From NCBI GenBank assembly GCA_947460235.1, contig CANHGK010000009.1, positions 41,809-105,808 on the forward strand: 64,000 nt of DNA. The letters are read 5' to 3'. A program made the translations under genes and the position numbers. The notes under the pieces were generated by a model. That model was not told the DNA's origin. It ran no database searches and saw nothing but the letters and a program-made list of their open reading frames with translations. Each line of letters starts with the position of its first letter. Position 1 is the stretch's first letter. Source of the stretch: Paenibacillaceae bacterium (GTDB taxonomy: Bacteria > Bacillota > Bacilli > Paenibacillales > CANHGK01). Below are positions 55,390 through 60,635 of this stretch, piece after piece.

Positions 55390-56688
55390 TTAACCCGATG
55401 TCGTCCAACGGTCAATGCCTTCAACTTCACCTGACGTCGTATTGATGTCCACTTGTACTTGTTTCCCATCTAAATCACCGAACCAACGTAAACAGCGGAC
55501 TTCGTCTCCAAACTCATTTTCTCGTAAGATGTCGTATCCGATCGTCCAATCGACTTGCGGATCTAACATTTCTTGCATAGCAGATTGATCCCACAACACC
55601 CCAGGCAATTTCCGCTGATGATGATTTTCTAAATATGCAGATGCATCCAATGATAAAACACTTCCATCATCCAATGATGCTCGGACAACAATCCGATCAG
55701 ATGCTAACCAAATTCCATCTTGATCAGGAACAAGTCGGAACGTAATCCAATGATGATTCGGTTGCATTTTTTCAATATGCCAACCATTATTTGGATATAC
55801 CGCATTCATCATTTTTAACACTCGCATCTTTAATTCATTGTCTGAAAAATTTACTTTATTTGGTTCGTAGTCGCTACTGAACGTTCGAATGTGCTGACAA
55901 GTCTGATCAAACGAGATACGAATTTTAGAATCATTCAAGGTACAACCCGATTCTCCATCTGTTCGTGTCCATGGAGACGATTCGCTTCTCGAAACATTAA
56001 ATTTTCCCATGAAATATGCCGCGTCATGGATTAATCTTGTCGTTGATACTTGTTTTCTTGTCGCGTTACTAGTTGGTCTTACGGTCGATTTAGGAGATGC
56101 TGATGGCTTTGCGTTTAACATTTGAATGCCACTTTGATCCGCATCCAGTAACGCAAGACTTAATTTGGACTTTGGTTCAGATTGATCAAGTTCACTCCAT
56201 CCATCATTTCCACTCCATAAATTCGCTTGAACGTTTTCCATTGCAATTCGTATTGCTTTGGTTTTGTGATACCAGTCATGCACTTTAGAATTGACGACCT
56301 TTCCATTTGGATGAATCGCCTGTTTGTACGCTTCGGTTTGTAGATCATGTAAAAAACGCTGTGTCTGTTCCATTGGTTGATTAATCAATGGCAACACCGC
56401 TAAATCCTGCTGTGCCATTTGACTCAAGCGCCATACATGCGCCCAATAGCGTTTTTGACCGTTCGTCGAGTGAATTAACTCCATATTTTCAAATTCATCT
56501 TGCGTTCTCGACAACATATCATTCAAGTGAAAAAATGCGCGTTGATACGAGACATCTGACTGTGCTTTTACGGTTTGATGTTGCGATTGTGCTAACCATG
56601 CCGCATACCAAACCGCCAATCCGAACATTACAAACAACACGAGATTTGAATACCGAAGACGCTTCAAGTGATACGCCGTTTCACCCAA
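55390..56688 (-). CDS. ypeB: Spore germination protein YpeB
   Basis: N-terminal TM, YQRAFFHLNDML...VWRLSQMAQQDLAVLPL resembling YpeB; C-terminal PepSY-like repeats; TTG start at 56688 proposed from GGAGG SD. Confidence 0.85.
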   Translation of the reverse strand: MGETAYHLKRLRYSNLVLFVMFGLAVWYAAWLAQSQHQTVKAQSDVSYQRAFFHLNDMLSRTQDEFENMELIHSTNGQKRYWAHVWRLSQMAQQDLAVLPLINQPMEQTQRFLHDLQTEAYKQAIHPNGKVVNSKVHDWYHKTKAIRIAMENVQANLWSGNDGWSELDQSEPKSKLSLALLDADQSGIQMLNAKPSASPKSTVRPTSNATRKQVSTTRLIHDAAYFMGKFNVSRSESSPWTRTDGESGCTLNDSKIRISFDQTCQHIRTFSSDYEPNKVNFSDNELKMRVLKMMNAVYPNNGWHIEKMQPNHHWITFRLVPDQDGIWLASDRIVVRASLDDGSVLSLDASAYLENHHQRKLPGVLWDQSAMQEMLDPQVDWTIGYDILRENEFGDEVRCLRWFGDLDGKQVQVDINTTSGEVEGIDRWTTSG

Positions 56689-56690
56689 AC

Positions 56691-56731
56691 AAAAAACCTC
56701 CTTTTTCGCTAGTTTGGCGAAAAAAGAGGTC
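56691..56731 (-). terminator. Terminator of gdh, overlapping the ypeB SD
   Basis: Minus strand GACCTCTTTTTTCGCCAAACTAGCGAAAAAGGAGGTTTTTT. Confidence 0.85.
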
Positions 56732-56751
56732 TTCCATACATACAAATACAA

Positions 56752-58002
56752 TTAAATCCAACCACGCAATCGCGCTGCTTCCGCCATTTTACGAACGCCG
56801 GTCATATAGGCAGCCAAACGCATGTTTACATCTCGTTTCAAATGCGTATCATATATTTTTTCAAATGCACCAATCAAAATCGCTTCGAGTTTTTGATGCA
56901 CTTCTGCTTCGCTCCAGTAATAACCCTGATTATTCTGTACCCACTCAAAATACGAAACGATCACACCACCTGAGTTTGCAAGGACGTCAGGAACAAGTAG
57001 AATACCTCGTTCTGTTAAAATCTTTGTCGCTTCTGGTGTCGTCGGACCATTCGCCGCTTCCACGATAATTTTGGCTTGGATTTTATCTGCATTTGCCATC
57101 GTAATTTGATTTTCGATTGCAGCAGGCACCAGAATATCGCAGGGTAACTCTAACATTTCATTATTTGAGATCGTTTGTGGAAAATATTTTGTAATCGTAC
57201 CGAAGGAATCTCGTCGGTCAAGCAAATCCTCAACATCTAAACCATTTTCGTTATAAATTGCACCATATGCATCCGAAATCGCGATGACTTTGGCTCCTTT
57301 TTCTTTCATAAATCGTGCCAAGTATCCGCCTGCATTCCCAAACCCTTGAATCACAACACGCGCACCTTCAACGGGAATGTTTTTACGTCGTAACGCTTCA
57401 TGAATCATAATTGTTACTCCATATGCAGTTGCTGTTTCACGGCCTTGAGAACCACCAAGTACGATTGGTTTGCCCGTAATAAATGCAGGCGAGTCAAACT
57501 CCCGAATCCGACTATATTCATCAAACATCCACGCCATAATTTGTGAATTTGTCATGACATCTGGTGCCGGAATGTCTTTTGTTGGTCCTACCAATTGGCT
57601 AATCGCACGCACATATCCGCGGCTTAATCGTTCCAACTCCCCGAATGACATTTTTCGAGGGTCACAGATGACGCCACCTTTTCCGCCGCCATAAGGTAAA
57701 TCGGCAATTCCACATTTCAAACTCATCCAAATCGATAACGCTTTCACTTCATCTTCCGTCACATCTGGGTGAAAACGTACACCGCCTTTTGTTGGACCAA
57801 CTGCATCATTATGCTGTGCACGATAACCGGTAAACATTTGCGTTTTTCCGTTATCCATACGAACCGGGATCCGAACTGTCAATACACGAAGCGGCTCTTT
57901 TAACAGTTCATACATCTCTTCACCGAATCCCATTTTGATAAGTGCCTCTCGAATGGTATGTTGCGTGGAGTTTAGTACATCCATTGCATCGTTTGTACTC
58001 AT
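56752..58002 (-). CDS. Glu/Leu/Phe/Val dehydrogenase (glutamate dehydrogenase, RocG/GudB-like)
   Basis: GPTKGGVRFHPDVTEDEVKALSIWMSLKCGIADLPYGGGKGGV; PAPDVMTN. Confidence 0.96.
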   Translation of the reverse strand: MSTNDAMDVLNSTQHTIREALIKMGFGEEMYELLKEPLRVLTVRIPVRMDNGKTQMFTGYRAQHNDAVGPTKGGVRFHPDVTEDEVKALSIWMSLKCGIADLPYGGGKGGVICDPRKMSFGELERLSRGYVRAISQLVGPTKDIPAPDVMTNSQIMAWMFDEYSRIREFDSPAFITGKPIVLGGSQGRETATAYGVTIMIHEALRRKNIPVEGARVVIQGFGNAGGYLARFMKEKGAKVIAISDAYGAIYNENGLDVEDLLDRRDSFGTITKYFPQTISNNEMLELPCDILVPAAIENQITMANADKIQAKIIVEAANGPTTPEATKILTERGILLVPDVLANSGGVIVSYFEWVQNNQGYYWSEAEVHQKLEAILIGAFEKIYDTHLKRDVNMRLAAYMTGVRKMAEAARLRGWI

Positions 58003-58029: not shown

Positions 58030-59454
58030 TTACCCTAATTCCAACTCTCCGCGCATTCCGGCGCGATTTTTGACAACTTGGATTCGCCAACCATTCGATG
58101 GTCTACGGAATACTTCGGCAGCAAAATCGGTCGTCGCCAATAATGGTGCTGGAACTGTCCAATTTGAATCGGGAATTGGTAAACCAGCTAACACAACGAT
58201 GTCCCATAGTTGACTCCATGTTTTCAGCACATAGCCAAGCGTGATTAGCGCTGAATTACTATAGGGATCCATCGAAGGGTTAATCAGTCTGAGCATTTGA
58301 TCGACAACGATGACAGGTGCCTGACCGGTCGCGCGAACAATTTGTTCTACTGCATTACTAACATCTTCTGCTGATGTATCGATTTTGCCTTCCATTGTCC
58401 ATAGCATCGTCGCAATCGCTTGATATGCTTTATTCGCATCTGATACTAATTCCGCCTCAACCAGTCCACGTTGCATCGCTTGAAGCGGAACTTCAAGCAG
58501 CCGTGAAATACTATACTGCCATAGTTCATAACTGCTATTGTCCCAACTTAGATACAGCACCGGCGTACCTTGAAGCGCTAACTCATCTGCGATTGATTTC
58601 ATAAGTGCGGTTTTGCCGCATTCACTTTTTCCATACCATAAATAAAATCCTTCTCGAATGCCCCCGCCCGTCCATTCATCAAGGACATCATATCCACTCG
58701 ACCACCACTGCACGACATCTTCTTTGGTCAGTTTTGCATATTCTTCGGTATATGCCGTTAAATATTTCACATCAGGATTCATTGGCGTAACCATTTGTTC
58801 TTGAACCGAATGCTGAATAATTGCAATAAACGTTTGTGTTGGGTCCTCTACGCGAAGGAAAAAATCGTTCACGTCACGGAAGCCCTCCGGTAATTGAATG
58901 ACCATCCCACTAATTCCACTTGATTCAATTAATTCTGCAATACGAGCACTTTCACGCCGGCCCATTTCATCATTTCCCATACAAATTAAGACGCGATGAC
59001 CTTCTAACATTTTTGCATGTGTATCCTTAAACAACATCACATTCGGCATACAGATTGCAGCAATACCCGATTGGTGTAGTGTAATTACGTCAAATACACT
59101 TTGACAAAACACCAAATCTTCCGAAGCTCCTAGTACACCATGATTAAAAAAAATAAGATTTTCTCCAATAAGAACTTTATACTTTGGTTCACGATGATCA
59201 AGCGCACGACCAATTAAATCGACGATTTGCTCTGATGTATCAATAACTGGGAATACGACGCGATGTTCAAAAAAGTGATCAATTAATTTCGACTCGTTCG
59301 GGCTCACAAATCCAATTTCACCAGGATCGTAACCAATACGAAACAACTCAATCGTTTCTTCTGTCAGACCGCGTTCAATTAGGTATTCATATGCCTCGTT
59401 ATTTAATGACTTTTGAAAGGCTAGCGTTAGTGCATCCAAATCAAATTGCATCAT
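58030..59454 (-). CDS. Twinkle/T7-gp4-like protein: DnaG-type Toprim region (catalytically degraded) fused to DnaB/RecA-type ATPase
   Basis: YLIERGLTEETIELFRIGYDP (Toprim_N-like); VVFPVIDTSEQIVDLIGRALDHREPKYKVLIGENLIFFNHGVLG (DnaG core-like); Walker A GKSECGKT; Walker B APVIVVDQMLRLI; VVKNRAGMRGELELG C-terminal DnaB-like motif; ATG at 59454 preceded by GGGGAGG. Confidence 0.85.
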   Translation of the reverse strand: MMQFDLDALTLAFQKSLNNEAYEYLIERGLTEETIELFRIGYDPGEIGFVSPNESKLIDHFFEHRVVFPVIDTSEQIVDLIGRALDHREPKYKVLIGENLIFFNHGVLGASEDLVFCQSVFDVITLHQSGIAAICMPNVMLFKDTHAKMLEGHRVLICMGNDEMGRRESARIAELIESSGISGMVIQLPEGFRDVNDFFLRVEDPTQTFIAIIQHSVQEQMVTPMNPDVKYLTAYTEEYAKLTKEDVVQWWSSGYDVLDEWTGGGIREGFYLWYGKSECGKTALMKSIADELALQGTPVLYLSWDNSSYELWQYSISRLLEVPLQAMQRGLVEAELVSDANKAYQAIATMLWTMEGKIDTSAEDVSNAVEQIVRATGQAPVIVVDQMLRLINPSMDPYSNSALITLGYVLKTWSQLWDIVVLAGLPIPDSNWTVPAPLLATTDFAAEVFRRPSNGWRIQVVKNRAGMRGELELG

Positions 59455-59504
59455 GATCGCCTCCCCGAATAAACGCAACTTGTAATGCGGGAATTTCGTT
59501 TTGA

Positions 59505-60557
59505 TTAATTTGATCCGCTCTCACTTAATCGGATGTTTTTTCGGTGTTCTGCGTACGTAGGCGCAAAATAATGTCGGTTCGTACCATCTTTGCGAGTCAC
59601 ATAGAACAAATCTTTCGTATCATCCGGATAAATAGCAGCTTTAATTGCTTCAAATCCTGGATTGGCAATCGGACCAGGTGGTAAGCCGGTATGTTTGTAT
59701 GTGTTATACGGTGAATCGATTTCCAAATCTTTGAACGTGAGACGCTCTTTTTGCTGTGCAAAGGTGTACTGAATGGTTGCGTCGATTTGAAGCGGCATTT
59801 TTGCGTGTAACCTGTTATAAATGACACTTGAGACATGTGCTCGTTCATCCGGAACTCGCACTTCGCGCTCGATCAGTGAAGCGATTGTCAATGCATCTTG
59901 GAGCGTTAAATTTGAGGCCTTCAAATGAGTTTTCCAATCTACTGGTAGTTGTCGCAATTGATGTGCCAACTCATCCCGCATTCGTTCGAGAATATCGATC
60001 GGCTTTGCTTCTTTTGGAAACGAATATGTTTGAGGAAATAAATAGCCCTCTAAGCGTCGCTTTGATTCATCCGTTGCATCTGGTAATGCTAAATCTGCTG
60101 TCGAGCTCAAGGTACGGGCCGCCACATCAAACTGCTTGTCCGTCATAAAGCCTATTTTCACAAGTCGTGTTTTAATTTGTTCGAGTGTAAACCCTTCTGG
60201 AATTGTAATTGTTTCTTCTTTTAATTGAATTTTCCCGGTCATCATTTGTTCCAATAGTTCATGCCATGTCATACCTTCGCGAAAAGTATAATTACCTGCT
60301 TGAATTTTTTTGGATTCCGGATTGAATCGCATATAAAGTGCAAATAAATATGCATCCCGAATCACATTTTCTTTTTTTAGTTGTGTTGCGATTTCCCATT
60401 GATTCGAACCGACAGCAATTGAAACGTGAATTTGTTTATTATGATCATTTCCAATCGGTTTGCTACCCCACCAAAGGTAAATACCGCCTGCGATACCAAC
60501 AACGACGACACCAACGATGAACCGCCCGATTAGCCAGCGAATCCACTTACTTATCAT
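59505..60557 (-). CDS. mltG: Endolytic transglycosylase MltG
   Basis: TIPEGFTLEQIKTRL; ASLIEREVRVPDERAHVSSVIYNRL; MPLQIDATIQY; YNTYKHTGLPPGPIANPG. Confidence 0.96.
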   Translation of the reverse strand: MISKWIRWLIGRFIVGVVVVGIAGGIYLWWGSKPIGNDHNKQIHVSIAVGSNQWEIATQLKKENVIRDAYLFALYMRFNPESKKIQAGNYTFREGMTWHELLEQMMTGKIQLKEETITIPEGFTLEQIKTRLVKIGFMTDKQFDVAARTLSSTADLALPDATDESKRRLEGYLFPQTYSFPKEAKPIDILERMRDELAHQLRQLPVDWKTHLKASNLTLQDALTIASLIEREVRVPDERAHVSSVIYNRLHAKMPLQIDATIQYTFAQQKERLTFKDLEIDSPYNTYKHTGLPPGPIANPGFEAIKAAIYPDDTKDLFYVTRKDGTNRHYFAPTYAEHRKNIRLSESGSN

Positions 60558-60635
60558 ATGTATAATATCCTCCTTACGATACAAAAAGCCCATCCGCGGA
60601 ATGCAAATATCCGAGGATGGGCATTTAAGGTCAGT

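Follow-up and report, generated by a model that had tools for sequence, protein, structure and literature searches.

Does a chromosomal protein that joins a DnaG-like region to a DnaB-type ATPase still prime or unwind DNA, or has the ancestral machine been turned to another use? T7 gp4, Twinkle and mobile elements already show this layout, and Twinkle-like architecture is commonly regarded as a feature of phages and organelles; the losses found in the chromosomal family described here are new. The window analyzed is a stretch of 64,000 nucleotides from a Paenibacillaceae bacterium (GenBank assembly GCA_947460235.1, contig CANHGK010000009.1, positions 41,809 to 105,808). The gene in question, which we call Q, is one intact open reading frame on the minus strand (58030..59454, stop codon included), which runs from an ATG at 59454 to 58030, encodes 474 amino acids and is supported by full-length homologues. 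A Shine-Dalgarno-like GGGGAGG (59460..59466, minus strand) lies 5' of the ATG; an alternative in-frame TTG upstream, at 59478, is a less likely start.

Pfam matched one chain of Q, above curated cut-offs, in the order DNAG_N (residues 47-92, 1.3e-12), Toprim_2 (117-198, 8.8e-9) and DnaB_C (252-423, 1.3e-11). The DnaG RNA-polymerase-core/Toprim-like region spans residues 45-206 (58837..59322; this and all features of Q below are on the minus strand), as defined by DNAG_N, Toprim_2 and a phmmer match in the PDB to DnaG (5guj, 7.2e-10), and the Toprim-like domain within it covers residues 117-198 (58861..59106). The DnaB-type RecA ATPase domain (residues 250-474; 58033..58707) is delimited by DnaB_C and a profile match to DnaB (2vye, 2.1e-20). 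It contains a Walker A motif GKSECGKT (275-282; 58609..58632), an H1a motif SWDNS (303-307; 58534..58548), a Walker B motif VIVVD (381-385; 58300..58314), a shortened loop (424-440; 58135..58185) at the site of H3 and the ssDNA-binding RESG loop of DnaB and gp4, and a trans Lys/Arg finger motif KNRAG (462-466; 58057..58071), part of VVKNRAG at 460-466. The N-terminus has no Cys pair and no Cys4 zinc-binding domain, and the DnaB N-terminal helical domain is absent; Cys pairs in a few relatives apparently lie only within over-extended upstream starts. A preliminary description of this DNA had reported a DnaG-like and Toprim region fused to a DnaB-type RecA core in one 474-residue protein, both Walker motifs, and the lack of the two N-terminal domains; open reading frame, Pfam, profile and fold searches agree on the fusion, and the motifs and absences are as it stated. 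The copy in the window, with residues 460-474 encoded at 58033-58077, stops about 12 residues short of the ends of its relatives. It also has a long branch (1.93) and an unusual composition, and constraint on Q is possibly relaxed in this lineage.

When a profile of the Q family was compared with the PDB, DnaB C-terminal domains scored best (2e-20), followed by DnaG RNA-polymerase domains (4e-14), and the matches to KaiC (2e-9) and RadA (6e-8) were far weaker than those to DnaB. Kinship of the ATPase with KaiC or RadA was rejected on this ground and because RadA forms a separate clade in the ATPase tree. The AlphaFold2 model of Q is of moderate confidence (pLDDT 75, pTM 0.53), with residues 44-64 and 232-250 poorly predicted, and the model of a Paenibacillus homologue was not better (pLDDT 72.6). 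In Foldseek searches against the PDB, the best full-length matches were T7 gp4 (5ikn, 6.3e-16) and human Twinkle (7t8b, 1.4e-14), in keeping with the gp4/Twinkle-type layout proposed earlier, and viral primase-helicases were matched in BFVD. The TM-scores were low, at about 0.36-0.38, probably owing to poor prediction of how the two halves sit relative to each other. Beyond its general domains, Q is not covered by any curated family in Pfam, NCBIfam, PHROGs or PADLOC, and no description of the bacterial family was found in the open-licence papers covered. PADLOC matched Q only to the DnaG-like part of a reverse-transcriptase system; a role in defence was rejected, since the match is limited to that part and a defence context is absent.

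In a tree of ATPase domains from the Q family, DnaB, RadA, T7 gp4 and plasmid and phage primase-helicases, the Q family forms one clade (support 97/97), sister, at lower support (86/75), to plasmid and phage primase-helicases of the pSMQ308/pSTERM02 type and apart from DnaB, RadA and T7 gp4, the last on a very long branch. Among proteins that do not belong to the family, those of the type found on pSMQ308 (Streptococcus thermophilus) and pSTERM02 (Sebaldella), which carry the annotation 'DnaB-like helicase C-terminal domain-containing protein', are also the nearest homologues over the full length (E to 2e-23, with 81-94% coverage), at about 22-26% identity, within the range of about 20-30% for phage and plasmid relatives overall. 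Unlike Q, they keep EG..D, DND, SLEM, SSFNR and FKESG, and several have zinc-type Cys pairs. T7 gp4 likewise fuses a DnaG-like Toprim core to a hexameric RecA helicase core, but its zinc domain (CDNC..CYVC), EGEID and DMD acids, H1a Glu and LRGSG DNA loop all lack counterparts in Q. The N-terminal half of Q finds its top matches in DnaG RNA-polymerase domains (5guj, 2au3) yet lacks the catalytic Glu, the first Asp and the zinc domain of DnaG; the ATPase half has the DnaB C-terminal domain as its top sequence profile match yet lacks the DnaB N-domain, DNA loop, H3 (SQLSR) and catalytic Glu and belongs to a separate clade. Metazoan Twinkle resembles Q in layout, in the loss of the Cys4 zinc domain that gp4 and plant Twinkle possess, and in a degenerate primase part (PMC3610141 for Twinkle), but it is an active replicative helicase, whereas Q has no DNA-binding loop. 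The name Twinkle-like homologue, as first proposed, thus fits the layout; it does not fit a working primase-helicase, because the family as a whole has lost the primase acids and the ssDNA loop, and membership of a T7/Twinkle clade is not supported by the grouping with the plasmid type, in a tree where T7 has a long branch.

The residues of the Q family were surveyed in a full-length alignment of 53-54 homologues. At the column of the Toprim catalytic Glu (Q118 in the window), Asn, Ser, Arg, Gly, His or Gln was found and Glu in 0/53 members; at the first Asp of the DxD motif (G160), Gly occurs in 41, Pro in 8, Ser in 3 and Ala in 1, and Asp in 0/53. The second Asp of DxD is retained in 53/53, the Asp of an FDV motif is also invariant, and NDExGRRES, D122 and D162 are conserved family-wide. 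DnaG of the same genome keeps EGYVD and DGDEAG, and the plasmid relatives keep both Toprim acids. With the Glu and the first Asp missing in all 53 members, priming by Q appears very unlikely.

The ATPase half has been altered more selectively. The Walker A Lys is present in 54/54 members, the Walker B Asp in 53/53, and the trans Lys and trans Arg each in 51/53; the equivalent DnaB residues K418 and R420 complete the ATP site (PMC6391071, PMC8421360). The linker before the motor domain is strongly conserved. At the H1a position, where E262 of E. coli DnaB is the catalytic base (PMC6391071), Q of the window has Asp305, and the family has Asp in 46, Glu in 5, Gln in 2 and Gly in 1 (n = 54), so that Glu is replaced in 49/54; Asp at this position can leave some ATPase activity. 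R381, E382 and G384 of the RESG loop of DnaB contact ssDNA phosphates (PMC6391071, PMC8421360). The stretch comprising H3 and this loop is 10-18 residues long in Q, as against 21-27 in the comparison proteins. In 17/17 DnaB proteins the H3 Gln/Arg was present and the RESG loop intact or nearly so, and KESG was found in 9/11 mobile relatives, but RESG or KESG in 0/19 Q members, all 19 of which have the H3 Gln/Arg deleted or replaced. What remains of the loop has an acidic character, with a net charge of -1 to -4 in the 53-member alignment. From these changes we infer that standard DNA translocation has been lost. The missing DnaB DNA-binding loop and the two Toprim replacements (Glu to Q118, Asp to G160) go beyond the preliminary description.

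Two deep-branching relatives from other classes bear on the order of these losses. Both L129 (7845-9581, minus strand) and L130 (788-2371, plus strand) keep EG..D, DSD or DND, and SLEM or SMET, and in both the zinc domain and RESG loop are already gone; they sit outside the mecA-gdh locus described below. It is possible that they are active intermediates, and the pattern suggests that a primase-helicase of plasmid type was first domesticated and then disarmed step by step, an order drawn from these two sequences and a direction that takes the intact mobile forms as ancestral. An ancestor of the Bacillota in question would have taken into its chromosome a protein of plasmid or phage type, with a zinc domain, a DnaG core with Toprim and a DnaB-type ATPase. 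First to go would have been the zinc-binding domain and the loop by which the motor binds ssDNA, and later the Toprim catalytic Glu and Asp, in most members together with the motor catalytic Glu, now Asp; Walker A, Walker B, the inter-subunit Lys and Arg fingers and the linker would have been kept throughout.

The gene is a settled resident of the chromosome. A full-length relative was detected in 51/300 genomes at the order level (about 34-44% identity across most of the protein), a count that takes in the genome of the window and a copy split among three frames, in about 21/401 genomes at the class level, and, as two further relatives, in other classes of the phylum; across Bacillota chromosomes the identity of full-length relatives is 31–44%. 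A single-sequence search of genome contigs gave no match, and an alignment-based search gave 18 named Paenibacillaceae loci, the hosts being Paenibacillus species and one Paenibacillaceae MAG. The usual locus is mecA–Q–gdh–prsW–(sleB)–ypeB–cmk. The mecA gene lies within 2 kb upstream on the same strand in 30/35 neighbourhoods, and gdh lies a short way downstream of Q, on its strand, in 18 loci, the window among them (spacing 12-83 nt, with one slight overlap) and does not adjoin Q in about half of the loci; prsW, sleB, ypeB, a PilZ gene, cmk, plsC and rpsA are found beyond gdh. Where a genome has no Q, the gene order is otherwise unchanged and mecA adjoins gdh or prsW, so the neighbours are partly just ancestral Bacillota gene order.

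In the window, the glutamate dehydrogenase gene (56752..58002, minus strand; Pfam ELFV_dehydrog) begins 27 nt downstream of Q, and gap statistics make a common operon likely; the spore germination gene ypeB (55390..56751, minus strand; Pfam YPEB_N) belongs to the same conserved neighbourhood. Directly upstream, mltG (YceG; 59505..60593, minus strand) occupies the usual place of mecA, and mecA is on another contig (G000:C3:161723-162292), so that this genome no longer has the ancestral cluster intact. Among close Paenibacillus species, the pairwise dN/dS of Q is 0.03-0.12, and the gene is under strong purifying selection; this selection, like the residue losses, is read directly from the sequences. 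Peptide patterns specific to the Q family, run against 2.9 million viral contigs, found no relative. The conserved locus, the low dN/dS and the empty viral scan together identify a stable chromosomal gene. The earlier claim of a chromosomal, non-phage protein is borne out: Toprim homology was found, and close homologues are chromosomal rather than confined to prophages.

These observations are best explained if Q is an ATP-controlled oligomeric switch or scaffold, derived from a domesticated mobile primase-helicase, that neither primes nor translocates, and we consider this reading probable. An oligomer that binds ATP is suggested by the survival of the Walker motifs, trans fingers and linker, and the lost primase acids and DNA-contact loop speak against a functioning primase or a helicase that translocates in the standard way. 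Q most likely forms a ring and binds ATP, although oligomer formation is deduced from motif conservation and the structural model is only moderately confident. In such a ring ATP would be bound between subunits and its hydrolysis would be slow or conditional. A broader proposal, that Q represents undescribed chromosomal 'pseudo-primase-helicases' of Bacillota in which both DNA activities were lost stepwise, strong selection preserved the ATP-driven ring and the motor became a non-DNA or non-translocating switch, is plausible, and we advance it more tentatively. The probable loss of priming in Q parallels that in animal Twinkle and would most simply be regarded as convergent. A vertically inherited bacterial version with half-disarmed survivors illustrates how a replication enzyme of a selfish element can be domesticated, and makes Q a conserved gene to study in Paenibacillus and related spore formers.

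The main rival to a switch is a modified helicase in DNA maintenance, a functional Twinkle-like enzyme without priming that acts in replication restart, recombination or repair and contacts DNA through other loops. The full-length fold is nearest to gp4 and Twinkle, the Walker motifs and trans fingers are conserved, and metazoan Twinkle unwinds DNA despite a degenerate primase part and zinc fingers (PMC3610141); DNA could be held by other residues of Q. The deletion or replacement of the loop and H3 Gln/Arg in 19/19 members, the acidity of the residual loop, the replaced H1a Glu in 49/54 and the DnaB and RadA already owned by these cells nevertheless make such a helicase unlikely. An active primase-helicase that replaces or duplicates DnaG and DnaB on the chromosome would share the domain layout of Q but is barely credible, given that the catalytic Glu and Asp are missing in every surveyed main-clade member, that the zinc domain is absent, and that the genome of the window encodes separate DnaG, DnaB and RadA, the first two with intact motifs.

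Conservation of NDExGRRES, D122 and D162 in a disabled Toprim pocket would also suit a regulatory nucleotide sensor, in which the pocket binds a nucleotide such as an alarmone and the ring signals to a partner, perhaps GDH or MecA/ClpC proteolysis. The idea of an alarmone is drawn from general knowledge of DnaG. The placement of gdh after Q in 18 loci and of mecA before it in 30/35 is compatible with such partners, but the order mecA-gdh-prsW-ypeB exists without Q, about half of the loci have no gdh beside Q, and in the genome of the window mecA is found at a different place. A link to GDH or MecA would be one of genomic context, part of which occurs without Q, and we regard a sensor as rather improbable. 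Outside the family, the intact proteins nearest to Q are primase-helicases of plasmids and phages, as a recent, decaying prophage or plasmid remnant would have it; this origin is highly improbable, and recent prophage ancestry was rejected, in view of the same locus in many genera, the dN/dS values, the lack of any relative among viral contigs and the mere 20-30% identity to phage and plasmid relatives.

Individual genomes depart from the common pattern. In the complete genome of Paenibacillus sp. CC-CFT747 (L047 / L071), Q lies in three frames at the conserved locus, through a sequencing error or as a true pseudogene. In one class-level genome (L083:12417-13421), an L-asparaginase gene is antiparallel between gdh and prsW, and open reading frames of similar size and similar strand occur there in several others. 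Intact primase-helicases of 670-710 residues with mobile-type motifs (L100, L101 and L102) are present in some class members, and one genome (G321) has such a protein beside a copy of Q.
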